A stretch of 64,000 bases of DNA from Rufibacter tibetensis. Its GTDB lineage: Bacteria; Bacteroidota; Bacteroidia; Cytophagales; Hymenobacteraceae. The notes beneath the pieces were generated by a model. The model worked only from the letters and a program-made list of their open reading frames with translations. It was not told the DNA's origin and did no database searches. Numbering within the stretch: position 1 is the first letter of the stretch; each line of letters starts with the position of its first letter. The stretch spans positions 4,532,001 through 4,596,000 of the forward strand of contig NZ_CP012643.1 in the NCBI RefSeq assembly GCF_001310085.1. The letters run 5' to 3'. Shown in pieces: positions 1-9,310 of the stretch. Position numbers and translations under genes: made by a program.

Positions 1-876
1 GGCCACTAGTTTTTTCAGTACCTCAGATATTAAAGTAACAATTGATATATCGGCTAGTGGACATTCCTGGTTGTCTATGATCCTGATCTCAATGGCGCCG
101 CGGCTGAAACGGGCTATGGCTCCTCTTGAATTCAAGAACTCTTCCTGTAAATCTCCCTCCGGGTCAAAAGGTGCAATGGCCTTGAACATGGGCTGAAATA
201 TCTTGGCGACATACACCGCCTCAGAAAAGACAGCTTCAGGCACCACCTGACCAGCAATAAGCGGGATCTTCTGCTGGTTTTTACGGTACACCTCCAGCCT
301 GGTGTCTAACAACCCACTCACCTTTCCGTCCAGCACGGGAGAAGCCGCACTGATGGCGGGGATTAAAGGCAGTATGAGCCGGATAGCAGCATGCAGTCTC
401 CCAAACTCTTCGTCAGAACTAAAGGGCAGGTTAAGATGCGTGCTTTGCAGGTTAGACCAGCCGTGTCCCTGGCAGTTGAAGATGCGGTTGTAGGCCTCGT
501 AAATCTCACTTGCTTCATGCGGCCAGAGCTTCGTTTCTTTGTATGGGTCCATGAACGGATGTGCTCCCGTAGGAAGCAGCATAGCGTTAAACGGTTCCAG
601 TAATTGGTTAACCCTAAGCACTTCTTTATGAAACTGTTCAATCAGAGTGCTTAAAGTTGAAGCCGGGCCATTGGTTTTAAGCTCCAGCACATGGAGCACC
701 AGTTCATTGGACCATGCCATGGTACCTCGCTCGACGTCTGAAGTGAGCTCGCCTGCTTCAGCCTTCAGAACCTCATCTGAAATGGGTTTGACTTCCAGCG
801 TGTCTCGATCCACAATCATGTATTCCATCTCCACACCATAGCCTTCAAACAAGCCTAATCTGCTGGACTGAGTCAT
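1..876 (-). CDS. GCS2-type carboxylate-amine ligase (glutamate-cysteine ligase family), 3' part outside window
   Basis: The reading frame is open from the ATG at 876 to the window edge (292 codons, no stop), so the C-terminus lies outside. The N-terminus reads MTQSSRLGLFEGYGVEMEYM, with the acidic GxExE-like start of glutamate-cysteine ligase family 2. Near the edge, RGAIEIRIIDNQECPLADIS matches the family's conserved R-x-IEIR-x-x-D-x-QECP region. Family members join an amino acid to a carboxylate using ATP. The ATG overlaps the stop of the upstream ATP-grasp gene by 4 bp (ATGA), which indicates translational coupling in one operon with the RimK-like and C39-like genes. Whether it makes gamma-glutamylcysteine or another amide cannot be read from the sequence. 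The family call is fairly safe; the substrate is unknown. Confidence 0.85.
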   Translation of the reverse strand, partial: MTQSSRLGLFEGYGVEMEYMIVDRDTLEVKPISDEVLKAEAGELTSDVERGTMAWSNELVLHVLELKTNGPASTLSTLIEQFHKEVLRVNQLLEPFNAMLLPTGAHPFMDPYKETKLWPHEASEIYEAYNRIFNCQGHGWSNLQSTHLNLPFSSDEEFGRLHAAIRLILPLIPAISAASPVLDGKVSGLLDTRLEVYRKNQQKIPLIAGQVVPEAVFSEAVYVAKIFQPMFKAIAPFDPEGDLQEEFLNSRGAIARFSRGAIEIRIIDNQECPLADISIVTLISEVLKKLVA

Positions 877-2339
877 GATACATCAAATTTTTTCTGGTTG
901 TCAATGCGCCTTTTTATAGACTTCAGAATGGTGAGGTACAGGTTCTTTCTCAGGATGCGGTCTTCCACGCCGTGGTCAATGTTGGGGTTGTCATTTATCT
1001 CGATCACGTAGGATTTGCCATCTATTTCTTTCAAATCAACGCCATATAGGCCATCACCAATCAGGTTTGCCGCTTTTAAGGCAGTGTGTAAGACGAAGAA
1101 TGGAACCTCCTCAAAGGGAACGGTCTCAAAGTTGCCGATGATGTCTTTCTTCTTACCGTCCCAATTATATATTTGCCAGTGGTCCTTGGCCATAAAGTAT
1201 TTGCAAGCGTACAAAGGCTGTTTGTCCAGCACCCCAATGCGCCAGTCAAAATCGGTGGGCTTAAACTCCTGACCAATGATAAGGTCAGACTCTGAAAGCA
1301 TCTCTTTCAGCTGCTCGGCTAACTCTTCCTGGGTTTTCACCTTCACCACACCTTGTGAGAAGGAGGAATCAGGCTTCTTCAGCACACAGGGCAGCCCCAG
1401 TTCCTCTACCACTTTGCGGCAGTTATCTCGGTGAATGATCATGCTTTTGGGTATGTTCACCTTCGCCTTGGTGAGCAACTCTGCCAGGTACACTTTATTG
1501 GTGCACCTCAAAATGGACACCGGATCATCAATCACCACCAGCCCTTCAGCATGTGCTCTGCGCGCAAAGCGGTAGGTATGATGATTTACCGAAGTGGTCT
1601 CTCTAATGAATAGTGCGTCAAATTCAGAAAGGCGCCTATAATCTTCCTTCGTAATCAGCTCTGTATAAAACCCTAAACTTTCAGCCGCCTCCACAAAATT
1701 CTGAATAGCCCTGTCATTAGAAGGCGGATCACTATCTGCGTGGTTGACTAAAATGGCCAAGTCATAGATTTTCTTGTTTGTCCGGACGTGGGAGAACCTG
1801 TTTCGGGCAAAGTAGGCCTTCGCAAATTTGTATAAGTCCTTTAGGTGATGTTCTGGAACCTCATTCACCGGAATAGGATTAATACTCTCCAGAACCCATT
1901 CCTTGTTGTACACAAACTGCGCCCGTAGCAAAGGAGCTTGAAAAAGGTCGTGCAATTGCTTGCTTAGTTTCTCATACTGTTTGGCAACGTTTTGCCCAAA
2001 ATAGATGCTAAGCGTAAAATTCTTAGACTTAAGCTTAGATAGGCTCTTCTGAATGGTTTCGTTTATTTCATCAGTAATTACCTTCACAATGGTTTGTGAC
2101 TTTAAATCCTGAATGGTAGTCACATTGGGTATGGCCCTGTGTCCCCTGGCTTCAGCTAACAAAGACACATAGTAACCGCTGCTTTGGTATTTATATGAGC
2201 GGCATAGGTTGAAGATGCGGGCGCTCTTCAGCTCTATATAAGCAGGATCTGTGAGGTAACGTTGCGCGTCAACTACTTCTACATCTTCTACGTCAAGATC
2301 CCAATCTTTAGGGTTATTGACCACTACTAGTTTGCGCAT
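873..2339 (-). CDS. RimK-like ATP-grasp ligase with RLAN-type N-terminal domain
   Basis: 488 aa. The N-terminal half (about 1-150, starting MRKLVVVNNPKDW) resembles the RimK-like ATP-grasp N-terminal (RLAN) domain. The C-terminal part (about 285-470) is an ATP-grasp domain, with a nucleotide-binding stretch VLKKPDSSFSQGVVKV, the strand DWRIGVL and the metal-binding motif EINDNPNIDHG at residues 447-457. ATP-grasp enzymes of this type activate a carboxylate as acyl phosphate and join it to an amine. The gene sits between a GCS2-type ligase (4-bp overlap downstream) and a papain-like peptidase (26-bp overlap upstream), so the three products probably act together. The substrate is unknown; a modified peptide or amino-acid conjugate is inference. 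Confidence 0.85.
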   Translation of the reverse strand: MRKLVVVNNPKDWDLDVEDVEVVDAQRYLTDPAYIELKSARIFNLCRSYKYQSSGYYVSLLAEARGHRAIPNVTTIQDLKSQTIVKVITDEINETIQKSLSKLKSKNFTLSIYFGQNVAKQYEKLSKQLHDLFQAPLLRAQFVYNKEWVLESINPIPVNEVPEHHLKDLYKFAKAYFARNRFSHVRTNKKIYDLAILVNHADSDPPSNDRAIQNFVEAAESLGFYTELITKEDYRRLSEFDALFIRETTSVNHHTYRFARRAHAEGLVVIDDPVSILRCTNKVYLAELLTKAKVNIPKSMIIHRDNCRKVVEELGLPCVLKKPDSSFSQGVVKVKTQEELAEQLKEMLSESDLIIGQEFKPTDFDWRIGVLDKQPLYACKYFMAKDHWQIYNWDGKKKDIIGNFETVPFEEVPFFVLHTALKAANLIGDGLYGVDLKEIDGKSYVIEINDNPNIDHGVEDRILRKNLYLTILKSIKRRIDNQKKFDVS

Positions 2340-3099
2340 GGAAGTTGGTTTGTTCTGAAAGTTGAGAAGTTTTAGGTTGGGGTTCTATGGCCAACAGGTT
2401 GGCGTCATAGGTCACAATGCCTAGCATAATGGCATTAATAAGGCGTTGAATGGGTACGTTATAGTAGTTGTTACCTACCAGGGGGTTTTCCTGGTAAGGG
2501 TCTGCCACAATCACGTGTTCTTTTTCCTGCTCGTTGTCGAATCCTGCTAATACTACAAAGTGGCCCAAAGGCTCTCCCCGTACATCATCGTATATGGCTT
2601 CGCCGCGGTCATTGGTGCGTTCGCGGGCGCAGTTATAAAGATAAGTGGCACTCAACCCTGTGAGTAAGGGAATACCTCTGGAAAAATACCGGTCCAGCAA
2701 ACTTAGAGTAAGGTCTTTGTGCTTGATTTCTCCTCCAAGTTCCAGAAACTCAATGTAGGCATGGGTGGCTACGTGCAGCTTCGCATCAGATTTGTAGATC
2801 AGCTGCTCCCTTAGGTTTAAAATCAACTTTTCAGAAGGCAGTTTAAACCAGGTTGGGTCAAACACGTGCAGGTTATAGGTGTAGATACGAGCTTTGTAAC
2901 CTCTACGCAACGCATGGCAACCCAGCAATACAGCCAGTGTGCCACCTTCCTCTAAAAAAGACACTTCAGAGATGACCTGCTCCAGCGGAATTACGTCTTT
3001 ATAGTATTGATATACCGCGTGCAGACTGGTAGGTCCACAGGTAGAATCATCTGGCTGGGTAAGTATCCTGAGCGAATTAAGTAAAGTTACTGGAAGCAC
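2314..3099 (-). CDS. C39/papain-like cysteine peptidase associated with RimK-like ligase
   Basis: 261 aa. The motif DDSTCGPTSLHAVYQYY (Cys21), GEPLGHFVVLAGF (His180) and VADPYQENP (Asp200) form a Cys-His-Asp triad of the C39/papain-like type. There is no signal peptide or membrane segment, so it is probably cytoplasmic. The start shown is GTG at 3099; no in-frame ATG precedes the Cys motif and no convincing ribosome-binding site is visible, so the start is uncertain by some codons. Its 3' end overlaps the ATP-grasp gene by 26 bp. It could trim a peptide before or after ligation, or hydrolyse the ligase product; the sequence does not decide. Confidence 0.7.
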   Translation of the reverse strand: MLPVTLLNSLRILTQPDDSTCGPTSLHAVYQYYKDVIPLEQVISEVSFLEEGGTLAVLLGCHALRRGYKARIYTYNLHVFDPTWFKLPSEKLILNLREQLIYKSDAKLHVATHAYIEFLELGGEIKHKDLTLSLLDRYFSRGIPLLTGLSATYLYNCARERTNDRGEAIYDDVRGEPLGHFVVLAGFDNEQEKEHVIVADPYQENPLVGNNYYNVPIQRLINAIMLGIVTYDANLLAIEPQPKTSQLSEQTNFHAQTSSGQ

Positions 3100-3349
3100 T
3101 TTTTTATAATTATTTGTGCCTCTTATACGTGTTTTTACGGTAGAGTTGCTTTAGAACTCTTTATTATGATCCTACTTTACCCGGTAATTCAATAAATTGA
3201 AAGGCAAGATTCACTTACATAATTATTTTTAGGTAAACCAATCCACGAAATCTTCAAAATTTAGAGTGTAGAAATAGCCCATAACTCCTGAAGATTGATA
3301 ACTTTGGAAAAAGAAAGAGATACTTTGTTCACTTTCAACAAAGAGAGAT
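3100..3349. other. Divergent intergenic region
   Basis: AT-rich region of 250 bp between the minus-strand ligase cassette and the plus-strand response regulator. It should hold promoters for both sides. Only the plus-strand TAACTTTG box at 3299-3306 stands out; I see no small gene or strong hairpin. Confidence 0.5.
3299..3306 (+). promoter_or_regulatory. Candidate -7 box (TAACTTTG) for the LytTR regulator
   Basis: Matches the Bacteroidota -7 consensus TAnnTTTG, 44 bp before the start codon. No TTG at the usual -33 distance, so this is a partial match. Confidence 0.4.
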
Positions 3350-4066
3350 TTGAAAAAGGATACCCCCTACCGCACCATTATTATTGACGATGACGAGTTG
3401 AGCCGGATGATTCTGGAACGACACATCAAGTCTACCCCTTCCCTGGAACTAGTGCAAACGTTCAGTTCCAGCGTAGACGGTTTAGCGTGGCTACTGAAAA
3501 ACGACCACATAGACGTTCTTTTCCTGGATGTAGAAATGCCTGAAATGACAGGCTTAGAGCTGCTCAGGACCTTGCCCCATAAGCCTGAAACCATTCTCAT
3601 CACCTCACACAAGGATTTTGCTTTACAGGCCTTTGAGCTTCAGGTAGCGGATTACCTTCTTAAACCTGTAGATTTTACCCGCTTCACCCAGGCAGTACTG
3701 AATACCACTAAAAAGCTTCAGCCCCAAACTTCCGCTGTACAGGCCACCAACCAGCCCGATGAGCTATTTGTGAAGGTTGATAATAAGATCATCAAGCTAA
3801 ACCTGAATAATATTTGCTTCATTGAAGCGCGCGGCGATTATGTGGTCATCAATACAGATACCAAAAAACACATTGTGTACACCACAATGAGCGCCATTGA
3901 TCAAAAGCTTCCGGTAGATCAGTTCCTCCGTATTCATAGGTCTTTCATCATTAACCTGAAGAAAATCGAGTTAATTGAAGATGACTCTGTATTCATGCAG
4001 GAAAAATACATTCCTATTGGAGGGTCTTACCAATCTAAATTTTACAGCCGAATCAACAAACTGTAA
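3350..4066 (+). CDS. LytTR-family two-component response regulator (LytR/AlgR type)
   Basis: 238 aa. The receiver domain (1-120) has the acidic cluster IIDDDE (Asp13-15), phospho-acceptor Asp60 in LFLDVEMPE, Thr85 and Lys105 in LLKPVD. A LytTR DNA-binding domain occupies about 133-238 (ICFIEARGDYVVI, FLRIHRSFIINL). The start must be TTG at 3350: the next ATG is inside the receiver domain, and a purine-rich AAGAGAG lies just upstream. In Bacteroidota these regulators usually pair with a membrane kinase of the LytS/YehU type, but no kinase gene is in the window. A hairpin terminator follows at 4097-4142. Confidence 0.92.
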   Translation: MKKDTPYRTIIIDDDELSRMILERHIKSTPSLELVQTFSSSVDGLAWLLKNDHIDVLFLDVEMPEMTGLELLRTLPHKPETILITSHKDFALQAFELQVADYLLKPVDFTRFTQAVLNTTKKLQPQTSAVQATNQPDELFVKVDNKIIKLNLNNICFIEARGDYVVINTDTKKHIVYTTMSAIDQKLPVDQFLRIHRSFIINLKKIELIEDDSVFMQEKYIPIGGSYQSKFYSRINKL

Positions 4067-5229: not shown

Positions 5230-5880
5230 CTACTCTCTGGGCTTATGACGGCTTTCCAGCACCTGTACTACCTCTGCTAAGGACAAACCCGAAGCTTCTA
5301 ACAGTACAAGCAGGTGGAAGATCAAATCAGCAGCTTCGCCTTTCATAGTATCTGTTTTACCAGCTACGGCATCAATCACCACCTCTACGGCTTCTTCTCC
5401 CACTTTCTGCGCCATTTTGTTCAGGCCTTTATCAAAGAGGAAGTTGGTGTAAGAGCCTTCTATTGGGTTCTTGCGGCGTTCTTTAATGGTTTGCTCCAGT
5501 TTGGCAATGGATTGCAGAGCTTGCTCTGTTGGAGTAAAGTTCTGGAAGCTTCTCTCATGGTAAGAGTTGCTGTCTTCATTCACATCAAAACAGGTTTCTG
5601 TATTTCGGTGACATGCCGGACCAGTTGGATCAACCAGAATCAGGAGAGTGTCTTGGTCGCAGTCCAGTTCCATCTTCACCACCTTTAAGGTATTACCTGA
5701 GGTTTCTCCTTTGGTCCAGAGACGGTTTTTTGAACGGGAGAAGAAGGTTACCAAGCCTGAGGTTTGAGTATGCTGAAAGGCTTCCTCATTCATGTAGCCC
5801 AGCATCAATACTTTTCCGGTAGTGGCATTCTGGATAATAGCTGGTACCAGGCCCTCTCCTTTTTTGAAATCTATGGTCAT
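5230..5880 (-). CDS. hisIE: Bifunctional phosphoribosyl-AMP cyclohydrolase / phosphoribosyl-ATP pyrophosphatase
   Basis: 216 aa fusion catalysing steps 2 and 3 of histidine synthesis. The N-terminal cyclohydrolase domain (about 1-110) shows MLGYMNEEAF, SRSKNRLWTKGETSGN and the metal-binding DCDQDTLL and ACHRNTETCF motifs. The C-terminal pyrophosphohydrolase domain (about 120-216) shows KKVGEEAVEVV-like residues (QKVGEEAVEVVIDA) and FHLLVLL. It is the last gene of the his operon; a 96-bp gap with AAGAC-type short repeats separates it from hisF. Length and domain order are normal. Confidence 0.97.
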   Translation of the reverse strand: MTIDFKKGEGLVPAIIQNATTGKVLMLGYMNEEAFQHTQTSGLVTFFSRSKNRLWTKGETSGNTLKVVKMELDCDQDTLLILVDPTGPACHRNTETCFDVNEDSNSYHERSFQNFTPTEQALQSIAKLEQTIKERRKNPIEGSYTNFLFDKGLNKMAQKVGEEAVEVVIDAVAGKTDTMKGEAADLIFHLLVLLEASGLSLAEVVQVLESRHKPRE

Positions 5881-5976
5881 GTCTTTTATGTTAAGACATA
5901 AGATCTAAGACGCAAGACTTAAGATAACTTGAATGTATCTAAAAAGTAATGTGTCTTACATCTATTGTCTTTTGTC
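5881..5976. repeat. Short AAGAC/ATAAGA-type repeats between hisF and hisIE
   Basis: The gap holds repeated units such as TAAGACATAAGATCTAAGAC on one side and their imperfect complement (GTCTTACATCTATTGTCTTT) on the other, forming a weak imperfect inverted repeat. A related pattern occurs in the hisA-hisF gap. Function unknown. Confidence 0.5.
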
Positions 5977-6729
5977 TCAAATACGAATATCTATCTTATT
6001 CTCTGCTAAGTATTGTTTCAGCCCTGGGATAGGTACTTCCTGAAAGTGGAAGATACTTGCTGCCAGGGCTGCGTCAGCACCTACTTCAAAAACATCTAAG
6101 AAGTGTTGCTGGTTACCGGCTCCGCCTGAAGCAATCACCGGCACAATTACGTTGCGGGAGATTTCACCTGTAATATCCAAGGCGAAACCGTTTTTGGTGC
6201 CGTCGTTACTCATAGAGGTGAGCAGGATTTCTCCGGCGCCTAGCTCAACTACTTCCTTCGCCCAGTCTAAAGCCCAAAGACCAGTGTCTACGGTGCCTGC
6301 TTTGCTGAATACCTTCCAACCTTCGGGAGTGCTTTTGGTATCAATGGCTACAGTAACGCACTGGCTCCCGAAACGGCTTGCCAACTCGGTAATCAAATCC
6401 GGACGGTGAATAGCCGAGGAATTTACAGATACTTTATCGGCGCCGTTTTGCAACAGTACTTCTACATCTTCCACGGCACTAATACCGCCACCAACAGTAA
6501 ACGGAATATCTATATAACGGGCTATTTCGCGCACCAATTCACGCAGGGTTTTGCGTTTCTCATTAGTAGCGGTGATGTCCAGAAACACCAGTTCATCAGC
6601 GCCTTGTTTTGCGTATAAAGCAGCTAATTCAACTGGATCACCGGCATCACGGATATCTTCAAAACGTACCCCCTTTACGGTGCGTCCGTTTTTAATATCT
6701 AAGCAAGGGATAATTCTTTTTGTAAGCAT
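5977..6729 (-). CDS. hisF: Imidazole glycerol phosphate synthase, cyclase subunit HisF
   Basis: 250 aa (beta/alpha)8 barrel with catalytic Asp11 ([13 protein letters not shown]) and the second Asp in TVAIDTK (about residue 130). Phosphate-binding motifs TVGGGI and VIASGGAG are present. With HisH it converts PRFAR and ammonia to IGP and AICAR. It is the penultimate his gene. Unlike the rest of the operon it is set apart by gaps of 182 bp (upstream, with a REPIN-like element) and 96 bp (downstream). Confidence 0.97.
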
Positions 6730-6732
6730 TTT

Positions 6733-6800
6733 AGTAGCTCAAGATATAAGATGACAGAAATAAGACTTCTTCTTACATCTTCATCTATTCAAATCATATT
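6733..6800. repeat. AAGAT/ATAAGA-type short repeats downstream of the REPIN-like element
   Basis: AAGATATAAGATG ... CTTACATCTTCATCT forms an imperfect inverted repeat resembling the one between hisF and hisIE. Seen by eye only. Confidence 0.4.
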
Positions 6801-6812
6801 TTCGATATTACC

Positions 6813-6900
6813 GCTGGCGCGAGCGTCCCGCTCGTGCCTTCTTTGCAGGTTTGATGTAATCTTGAATGCTAGAGGACACGAGCGGGACGCTCGCGCCAGC
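6813..6900. repeat. REPIN-like element: two inverted 24-nt GC-rich arms in the hisA-hisF gap
   Basis: Arm 6813-6836 and arm 6877-6900 are perfect reverse complements over 24 nt, separated by 40 nt. Each arm contains its own small hairpin, CGAGCG-TCC-CGCTCG. This two-level palindromy and high GC in an AT-leaning intergenic gap is the usual form of REP doublets spread by REP-associated tyrosine (RAYT) transposases. No RAYT gene is in the window. In the his transcript it would form a strong hairpin inside the operon. Confidence 0.8.
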
Positions 6901-6911
6901 AACCTGACTTA

Positions 6912-7631
6912 CTAGATTACTTCTTTGGATAGATCTTCTAGGGAGATGGTTCCCTCATAGATAGCTTTACCAATGATAGACCCGTGCAAACCTGCTTCAC
7001 GCAACTGACGGACTTCCTCAATGGTCGTTACACCGCCGCTGGCAATGAACTGTAAGGTTGGAAACTGCTCCAATAAACGCTGATAAACCTCAATAGAAGA
7101 ACCTTGCAGTTTGCCGTCTTTGCTAACATCGGTACAGATGAACGTTTTTCCGCCCTTTTCAGCAAAAGAGGCTAAAAACGTCTCAAGCGTTAATTCACTT
7201 TGGTCAGCCCAGGCATTTATGGCGATATGATTATTTTTAAAATCAGCTCCAATAATAATTCTATCAGCGCCGTACTCCTTCAACCATGCTTCTACCGTTA
7301 CCGGCTCCCGAACGGCAATACTGCCTGCGGTGATTTGCTTGGCACCGGCATTAAAAGCCTGACGTACGGCTTCTGAGCTTTGTAGGCCTCCGCCGTAATC
7401 AATGTGCAGTTTGGTTTGGCTGGCGATACGCTCCAGTACAAGTAGATTCACGGGCTGTTTAGCACGGGCACCATCCAAATCGACTAGGTGCAAGCGACTT
7501 AAGCCAAGGCCTTCAAACTGTTTCGCTACTTCTACCGGGTCTGTGTGGTACGTAGTCTGCTGTGTAAAATCACCTTCGGTGAGGCGAACGCATTGTCCAC
7601 CAATAAGGTCAATAGCCGGAATAATGTCCAT
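6912..7631 (-). CDS. hisA: ProFAR isomerase HisA
   Basis: 239 aa (beta/alpha)8 barrel that isomerises ProFAR to PRFAR. Asp8 (MDIIPAIDLIGGQCVRL) and the second catalytic Asp in FICTDVSKDG are present, as are phosphate-binding IDYGGG and FIASGGVT. The start is 3 nt after the hisH stop. It is followed by the 182-bp gap with the inverted repeat before hisF. No HisA/TrpF dual-function signs are visible. Confidence 0.97.
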   Translation of the reverse strand: MDIIPAIDLIGGQCVRLTEGDFTQQTTYHTDPVEVAKQFEGLGLSRLHLVDLDGARAKQPVNLLVLERIASQTKLHIDYGGGLQSSEAVRQAFNAGAKQITAGSIAVREPVTVEAWLKEYGADRIIIGADFKNNHIAINAWADQSELTLETFLASFAEKGGKTFICTDVSKDGKLQGSSIEVYQRLLEQFPTLQFIASGGVTTIEEVRQLREAGLHGSIIGKAIYEGTISLEDLSKEVI

Positions 7632-7634
7632 GGC

Positions 7635-8216
7635 TTAGAGATTTAAGAAGTTCTGAAGAATATGTGCTCCCGCAGGACCACTTTTCTCGGTATGAAACTG
7701 TACTGCGTAGAAGTTTTTGTATTGCAAGGCGGCACTGAAAGGCTCTGGATATGAACTCTGCGCAATAGTATGCTCTGTTACCGGCGCATAGAAGCTATGC
7801 ACGAAGTAAGCGTACTCATCTTCATTAATACCAGTGAATAAATCACTTTTCAGGTGATGCAAATTGTTCCAGCCCATGTGCGGCACTTTCACAGCTGCGT
7901 CAAATTTTTTCACCGGCACCGGAATAATGCCCAGCATCACTGTATCACCTTCTTCAGAGTGCTGACAAAGCAACTGCATACCCAGGCAAACACCTAGAAA
8001 GGGTTGCGTAAGGGTAGGTAACAGCTGATCCAGGTTATTTACTTTGAGAGCACGCATTGCTGAAGAAGCTTCGCCTACACCCGGGAAAATTACCTTGTCG
8101 GCTGATTGAATCTCTTCCGCATTGGAGGTAACGGTAGCTTGTGCGCCCAATCGCTCTAAGGCGAAAAGTACACTCTGCACGTTACCTGCTTTATAATCAA
8201 CTATGACGATTTTCAT
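7635..8216 (-). CDS. hisH: Imidazole glycerol phosphate synthase, glutaminase subunit HisH
   Basis: 193 aa class I glutamine amidotransferase. Nucleophile Cys77 lies in FLGVCLGMQLL; His175 and Glu177 in QFHTEKSG complete the triad. It supplies ammonia to HisF. Its ATG overlaps the hisB stop by one base (TAATG), so translation is probably coupled. Confidence 0.97.
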   Translation of the reverse strand: MKIVIVDYKAGNVQSVLFALERLGAQATVTSNAEEIQSADKVIFPGVGEASSAMRALKVNNLDQLLPTLTQPFLGVCLGMQLLCQHSEEGDTVMLGIIPVPVKKFDAAVKVPHMGWNNLHHLKSDLFTGINEDEYAYFVHSFYAPVTEHTIAQSSYPEPFSAALQYKNFYAVQFHTEKSGPAGAHILQNFLNL

Positions 8217-9310
8217 TATAGAACGCCTTTGGTGCTTGGAATTTCCATTTTGTTCACGTCACGAACCAATGCCATCTTGATTGCCTTAGATACGGCTTTG
8301 AAGATAGCTTCAATTTTGTGGTGCTCATTCTCGCCTTCTGCCTTGATGTTGAGATTAGACTTAGACGTGTCTGAGAATGATTTGAAGAAGTGCATGAACA
8401 TCTCAGTGGGCATGTCTCCTATTTTCTCACGAGAGAATTTAGCATCCCACACTAACCATGGGCGACCAGAGAAATCAATAGCGGCGTGAACTAAGGCATC
8501 ATCCATCGGTAAAAGGAAGCCGTAACGGCTAATGCCACGTTTATCGCCAATGGCTTGCGCGAAAGCTTCACCTAAGGCTAAAGCGGTATCTTCAATGGTA
8601 TGGTGCTCATCAATGTGTAAATCACCTTTAACGTGAATGCGCATGTCTACGCCAGAGTGACGAGCTAACTGATCCAGCATGTGGTCAAAGAAACCAACTC
8701 CCGTCTGCATGTCTGATTTACCTTCACCGTCCAGGTTAATTTCTACACTGATTTGCGTCTCATTCGTGTTCCGCTGGATGGTTGCGGTTCGGGCTGGTAA
8801 ACGCAGGAAGTTATAAATGGTATCCCAGTCTGTACTGATGAAAGTAGCATCTTCATTGGCTACGTCCTGTAACAAAATGCTCTTAGAACCTAGGTTCTTC
8901 GCCATCTGCACATCTGTGAGGCGGTCGCCAATCACATAAGAGTTAGCCAAGTCATATTCGCTGGTGAGGTACTGGCCCATCATGCCTAACCGTGGTTTGC
9001 GGTTAGGGCTGTTTTCGTGCTCAAAACTGCGGTCAATGTGGATATGAGAGAATTTAATGTCCTCGCCTTCCAGAATCTCCAGCATCTTATTTTGGTATGG
9101 CCAGAATGTATTTTCAGGGTAAGAATCTGTGCCTAGCCCGTCTTGGTTGGTAACCATCACGAACTCGTAATCTAACTCTGTAAATATTTTGTAAAGGTTA
9201 CGGATGACCTTCGGGTAGAAAGAAAACTTCTCAAATGAGTCTACCTGATAATCGGTAGGTGGTTCAAGGAGAATGGTACCGTCGCGGTCTATAAATAAAA
9301 CTTTTTTCAT
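8216..9310 (-). CDS. hisB: Bifunctional histidinol-phosphatase / imidazoleglycerol-phosphate dehydratase HisB
   Basis: 364 aa fusion. The N-terminal HAD phosphatase (about 1-165) has the DxD motif FIDRDGT (Asp8, Asp10), MVTNQDG and VIGDRLTD. The C-terminal IGPD domain (about 172-364) has the metal-binding [19 protein letters not shown] and the late HHKIEA motifs. It catalyses two separate steps of the pathway. The start is 3 nt after the hisC stop. Confidence 0.97.

Follow-up and report, generated by a model that had tools for sequence, protein, structure and literature searches.

A conserved operon of GCS2-family and RLAN ATP-grasp ligases with two accessory hydrolases is a candidate pathway for a small amide conjugate

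At the edge of a 64,000-nucleotide stretch of the Rufibacter tibetensis chromosome (positions 4,532,001 to 4,596,000 of NZ_CP012643.1, hereafter the window) begins an operon encoding a C39-like cysteine hydrolase, a ligase that fuses an RLAN domain to a RimK-type ATP-grasp, a divergent GCS2-family carboxylate-amine ligase and an amidohydrolase resembling N-formylglutamate amidohydrolase (FGase). We put at roughly 55% the probability that this operon makes and processes one small non-ribosomal amide conjugate by means of the GCS2 enzyme, the ATP-grasp enzyme and the two hydrolases. The observations that speak for this reading are the gene set itself, its conservation, the invariance of its catalytic residues and the mutual exclusion of GCS2 and GNAT (acyltransferase) partners beside the same ATP-grasp. 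What we infer is the order of the steps, the use of glutamate as a building unit and the targets of the hydrolases.

Three of the genes lie on the minus strand of the window: the C39-like papain-fold hydrolase (2314..3099; 261 aa, GTG start, with catalytic Cys21, His180 and Asp200 and oxyanion Gln15), the RLAN ATP-grasp amide ligase (873..2339; 488 aa, RLAN domain at residues 25-168) and the GCS2-family ligase (1..876), which runs off the window at position 1 with the N-terminal 292 of its 413 aa inside. Whole-genome sequence past that position yields the complete 413-aa GCS2 protein (L003:13635-14876), followed by the co-directional FGase as a fourth gene (G000:C1:4530940-4531638, equal to L003:12940-13638). 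Overlaps join every consecutive pair, by 26 bp (C39/ATP-grasp), 4 bp (ATP-grasp/GCS2) and 4 bp (GCS2/FGase). The unit is a four-gene operon, C39 - RLAN ATP-grasp - GCS2 - FGase, cut by the window edge. An initial annotation of the window had described a three-gene cassette; the two overlaps it gave, 4 bp and 26 bp, are exact, and its single operon stands, enlarged to four genes by a second amidohydrolase past position 1. The catalytic motifs it listed (IEIR...QECP, EINDNPN and Cys21/His180/Asp200) are all present, and the catalytic residues are invariant in homologues.

The cassette is widespread. RLAN ligases occur in 27 of 59 sampled relatives, 45 of 396 phylum-wide genomes (~11%) and 72 of 399 Pseudomonadota (18%); the 14 control genomes had none. 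We assembled 181 RLAN neighbourhoods, comprising 25 from relatives (host included), 36 from the phylum sample, 40 from Pseudomonadota and 80 from named genomes found by a similarity scan, the last chosen by similarity to the cassette ligase and biased towards the GCS2 form. The cassette GCS2 is found in 121 of the 181, always adjacent to the ligase and transcribed in the same direction; C39 is also present at 94 of these 121 loci and FGase at 83. The adjacency is not due to chance: every pair is co-directional (GRASP-GCS2 121/121, C39-GRASP 94/94, GCS2-FGase 83/83), with median gaps of -4, 2 and -7 bp. Genes were called as longest open reading frames (ORFs), a method that over-extends certain starts, gives only approximate values for some gaps and overlooks some genes. 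Carriers span about 15 named phyla: Bacteroidota, Balneolota, Ignavibacteria, Fibrobacterota, Thermodesulfobacteriota, Omnitrophota, Planctomycetota, Pseudomonadota, Verrucomicrobiota, Spirochaetota, Nitrospirota, Acidobacteriota, Tectomicrobia, Krumholzibacteriota and Sumerlaeota, with the proviso that many carriers are metagenome bins whose contigs may be misassigned and whose single phylum assignments may be wrong. An independently annotated Legionella record lists a RimK family protein, a glutamate-cysteine ligase family protein and an N-formylglutamate amidohydrolase in a row. Conservation in relatives, on which the initial annotation had made its proposal depend, thus extends far beyond Cytophagales.

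The two hydrolases are less constant than the two ligases. In a search of 14 genomes for C39, nine with no copy at the cassette (G051, G296, G280, G252, G410 and G449-G452, mostly flavobacteria) had none elsewhere either, and the other five have C39 at the cassette. A search for FGase in 14 genomes found none at E 0.001 in ten, and copies away from the cassette in G012, G035 and Blastopirellula (G454); in G289 an FGase adjoins GCS2 but had been overlooked by the gene caller, which makes the count of 83 a lower bound. On the ATP-grasp tree, C39 changes 8 times and FGase 21 times. Several of the genomes searched lack the one or the other altogether, which makes both hydrolases accessory and leaves the pair of ligases as the invariant core. 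This distribution makes quite improbable a catabolic or salvage unit whose main activity would be that of the hydrolases, on acylated glutamate or gamma-glutamyl peptides, with the ligases catalyzing a side or repair reaction. Such a unit would suit an operon that holds two hydrolases, one of them from a family known from histidine breakdown, but it is the hydrolases that come and go.

A further clue to what the ligases do together comes from the loci that lack GCS2. Among the 181 neighbourhoods, 121 have GCS2 only, 53 have GNAT only, one has both (L184) and six have neither, with GNAT detected by a profile built from RLAN-fused GNATs and one GNAT-C39 fusion. In the 53 GNAT-type loci the GNAT is fused to the RLAN ligase or stands beside it, and is often fused to a C39 domain; these loci have no GCS2 or FGase. 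On an IQ-TREE phylogeny of 91 ATP-grasps, the GCS2/GNAT label changes three times on the best tree, with at least two changes forced by well-supported branches, and a GNAT-fusion clade is nested inside a GCS2 clade. A genome-wide search for the cassette GCS2 in 12 GNAT-fusion genomes found it in none (0/12), while the positive control, nine GCS2-type genomes of which five belong to the same family, yielded it in every case.

Enzymes of the GNAT and GCS2 families acylate amines, the former using an acyl group activated as acyl-CoA and the latter activating it with ATP. GCS2 and GNAT therefore probably fill one slot: N-capping of an amine before the ATP-grasp extends the carboxyl end. The pattern is the one expected of non-orthologous replacement of a single step. 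FGase accompanies 83 of 121 GCS2-type loci and 0 of 53 GNAT-type loci, so its substrate likely contains the moiety added by GCS2, or else an N-acyl-glutamate formed later in the pathway. Since C39 is found in both forms of the locus, it likely acts on a part of the conjugate that they share.

The GCS2 protein belongs securely to its family (PF04107, 2.9e-31; 109 bits against a cut-off of 21) and has the metal/ATP core (GxExE, E-x-R). Across 84 homologues E263, R265, D268, Q270 and E271 are invariant, as are E16, E18, E65, H147, E263 and R265, which are common to YbdK. It keeps the GxExE, second Glu, central His, Arg193 and E-x-R core of the YbdK, EgtA and GshA ligases, but differs from them in conserved residues of its own (Y126, N142, Q144, N149, Q270 and E271). 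Its scores against the NCBIfam equivalog models, in bits, are 55.2 for YbdK (cut-off 176.4), 11.4 for EgtA (370.8) and 43.3 for cyanobacterial GshA (249); by sequence, it is not an equivalog of any of the three. PDB chains searched with the GCS2 profile gave no match. The initial annotation had named an ordinary gamma-glutamylcysteine ligase as the outcome that would overturn its proposal, and the protein lies far below every equivalog model.

These scores bear on a glutathione- or phytochelatin-like thiol pathway, in which GCS2 would make gamma-glutamyl-X, the ATP-grasp would act like GshB in adding a third residue, and the papain-fold enzyme would transpeptidate in the manner of phytochelatin synthase. 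GshA, GshB and phytochelatin synthase have these same three folds, the structure modelled for C39 matches that of the Alr0975 acyl intermediate with glutathione, and the host's best GSH-S_ATP match looks RimK-type (a cross match), with no clear GshB seen. We nevertheless consider such a pathway unlikely, as GCS2 falls far below all gamma-glutamylcysteine ligase models, the ATP-grasp is of RimK rather than GshB type, and a GNAT in place of GCS2 would abolish the gamma-glutamyl thiol.

A paralogous GCS2 of YbdK type is encoded elsewhere in the host genome, in a cluster of its own (L001; G000:C1:3811772-3815608), where a 353-aa ATP-grasp-like protein, the 367-aa YbdK-like GCS2 and a 275-aa class I glutamine-amidotransferase-like protein occur together. 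This cluster is probably another amide-ligase pathway.

The ATP-grasp protein scores above the Pfam cut-offs for both of its fused domains, RLAN (PF14401, 1.7e-50; 171 bits against 25) and RimK (PF08443, 2.2e-09; 37.7 against 21). Residues E447 and N449 of the EINDNPN motif are invariant among 75 ATP-grasps, and the closest named relative, from Rufibacter roseus, is 90% identical. The ATP-grasp part matches the structures of RimK, ArgX, LysX and Ddl; all matches listed are ATP-grasp enzymes, with none among them a separate match for the RLAN domain, whose placement is unsure given a pTM of 0.62 for the whole model. The ligase shares the ATP-grasp fold and the E-x-N metal motif with RimK, LysX and ArgX but differs from them in its extra RLAN domain, and it scores below the cut-off of the RimK alpha-L-glutamate ligase family (TIGR00768 in NCBIfam; 65.6 against 143.4 bits).

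This kinship raises the possibility of protein tagging, in which the ATP-grasp would add amino acids to a protein C-terminus or side chain, as RimK does on ribosomal protein S6, GCS2 would add one more, and C39 and FGase would remove the tag. In sequence and fold the ligase is closest to RimK, LysX and ArgX, whose substrates are the C-termini of proteins; peptidases and an endoisopeptidase have folds similar to that of C39, and some loci of either type have DUF155/RMND1 genes nearby. However, no conserved protein-substrate gene lies in or adjoins the cassette, the known substrates of GCS2 enzymes are free amino acids, and those of FGase-type enzymes are small N-acyl amino acids. On balance we regard tagging as possible but doubtful.

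The C39 protein matches Peptidase_C39_2 (PF13529, 3.7e-07) and PF03412 (8.3e-05), and Cys21, His180, Asp200 and Gln15 are invariant in an alignment of 64 diverse homologues. Its structure model (pLDDT 92.6) has as best PDB matches in Foldseek the C39 leader peptidase of PCAT, the endoisopeptidase PeiR and the phytochelatin synthase Alr0975, with E values against C39 structures down to 1.7e-06. Both the Cys-His-Asp residues and the fold place it among papain-fold, C39-like proteins. It is not a bacteriocin double-glycine leader peptidase, or C39 proper: the protein stands alone at 261 aa, with no recurring transporter or precursor family. Alr0975 and the C39 bacteriocin leader peptidases share its papain fold and Cys-His-Asp arrangement at 11-17% identity, and it differs from them in having neither a transporter fusion nor a leader-peptide partner. 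Where the initial annotation spoke of a peptidase, the papain fold and C39 likeness hold, while the term describes a fold and does not establish a peptide substrate.

Those structural neighbours bring to mind the maturation of ribosomally synthesized and post-translationally modified peptides (RiPPs), with C39 cleaving a leader peptide and the ATP-grasp forming macrolactams as in graspetides. The nearest solved structures of the C39 protein are indeed C39 leader peptidases. The 700-bp flanks held no conserved precursor peptide, in agreement with the initial annotation, which had seen none in the intergenic region; small ORFs there are shared only among close relatives and are apparently antisense shadows of neighbouring genes. 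No cluster-encoded precursor is conserved outside close relatives, which sets the cassette apart from graspetides and other RiPPs; the cassette has neither a fused ABC transporter nor a family of neighbours that recurs, and the ATP-grasp is RimK-like and carries an RLAN domain. On these grounds RiPP maturation is highly improbable and largely refuted.

The fourth protein belongs to the FGase family (PF05013, 3.4e-20; 73.6 bits against a cut-off of 28.9), with Atu2144 as its nearest solved structure (6.3e-31). As for a HutG role (N-formylglutamate deformylation during histidine breakdown), no NCBIfam model matched it, and the host has two other FGases, one of which scores much higher for PF05013. 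Elsewhere in the genome (L248; G000:C1, about 1249485) a RimK-type ligase adjoins a succinylglutamate desuccinylase/aspartoacylase-like enzyme, again pairing a ligase with an amidohydrolase.

For the favoured small amide conjugate, family precedents suggest the following course. GCS2 would spend ATP to activate a carboxylate (in its family, the gamma-carboxyl of glutamate) and so cap an amino-acid-like acceptor at its amine. Next, the RLAN ATP-grasp would activate the carboxyl end of the capped acceptor and join it to a second amino acid, often glutamate in the RimK/LysX precedent. The C39 and FGase-like enzymes may cut amide bonds of the conjugate, for trimming, editing or turnover and recycling. 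The initial annotation had likewise proposed two ligases and a peptidase acting in sequence on one conjugate; the operon is conserved, and the successive action, which we infer, is strengthened by the GNAT-for-GCS2 swap. More tentatively, the product may be an undescribed capped amino-acid conjugate of very diverse bacteria, with interchangeable capping by GCS2 (using ATP) or GNAT (using CoA) feeding one RLAN ligase to give a widespread metabolite, osmolyte or cofactor-like compound.

Several points weigh against this picture. The amine pocket of GCS2 differs from that of YbdK, for example in H-x-N for H-x-H and in an insertion at ~235-256, and glutamate may therefore not be its donor. C39 and FGase are missing from many loci, so a minimal pathway may need neither. 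Genome relatedness inflates the raw counts, and the Fisher tests with them, which leaves the tree count of two to three swaps as the safer number.

Clustering of the cassette's neighbours, together with a Pfam tally over 135 flanking proteins, found no further universal partner, the commonest family being MFS (4/135), and the four cassette proteins gave no match to PADLOC anti-phage defence models at E 1e-5. In the host, FGase is followed 91 bp away by a co-directional membrane protein with four transmembrane segments, which recurs mainly in close relatives. Upstream, a 250-bp intergenic region (3100..3349) is shared with a divergent LytTR response regulator (3350-4066), a candidate regulator that recurs only in close Rufibacter relatives. 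Further into the window, hisIE, hisF, hisA, hisH and hisB, called by eye from translations, occupy 5230-9310 on the minus strand in an ordinary arrangement. In 11 loci, five of GCS2 type and six of GNAT type (including L079:8184-8972, L105, L108, L223:2772-3572, L225, L228, L229 and L237), a DUF155/RMND1-family gene is at most six genes away from the RLAN ligase, and in L079 and L108 it is directly upstream of C39; a link to translation or membranes is possible. Class II glutamine-amidotransferase-like genes (PF13230), which resemble the gamma-glutamyl-removing hydrolase type, stand near the cassette in varying orientation in six loci from four phyla (L152:1262-2119, L156, L159:10433-11491, L174, L061 and L116). 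The Pontibacter cassettes (L072, L073, L075, L121, L123 and L124) have arginine-biosynthesis-like genes as neighbours, among them argH and an M20 deacylase, probably through local synteny.

The Pfam entry for RLAN reportedly refers to GNAT-papain fusions and to neighbourhoods with GCS2. Iyer et al. in 2009 reportedly predicted neighbourhoods in which an RLAN ATP-grasp stands beside a papain-like domain, GNAT and GCS2, as here, and assigned them to peptide biosynthesis. As far as those neighbourhoods are known through citing papers, the cassette is set apart from them by its FGase-containing form, the exclusion between GCS2 and GNAT, the restriction of FGase to GCS2 loci and the phylum-level spread. 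In PMC4431377, which credits Iyer et al. 2009, linked ATP-grasp and other amide ligases are described as acting by successive ligation followed by GNAT capping, and a papain-like family fused to GNAT has been reported (PMC10318531). In the NAGGN osmolyte pathway, a GNAT protein works with an asparagine synthase and a peptidase (PMC8070244). Its logic is analogous, with an amine-capping acyltransferase, a ligase and a peptidase (Ngg/AsnO, PA3459-PA3461) yielding a capped dipeptide, but it has no RLAN, GCS2, C39 or FGase, and the cassette ATP-grasp falls below the cut-off of the NAGGN synthetase model (TIGR03103; 16 bits against 569).

No functional paper or experimental product for this gene set was found in the literature that could be searched. 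Within that literature the product is undescribed, as the initial annotation had held, while the genomic association is of a kind predicted before; added here are the FGase-containing form, the GCS2/GNAT exclusion pattern and the tree test. If the reading of a capped conjugate is true, a common bacterial small molecule is still to be identified. The exchange of GCS2 for GNAT predicts either that the same core carries different caps or that the same compound is reached by different routes.

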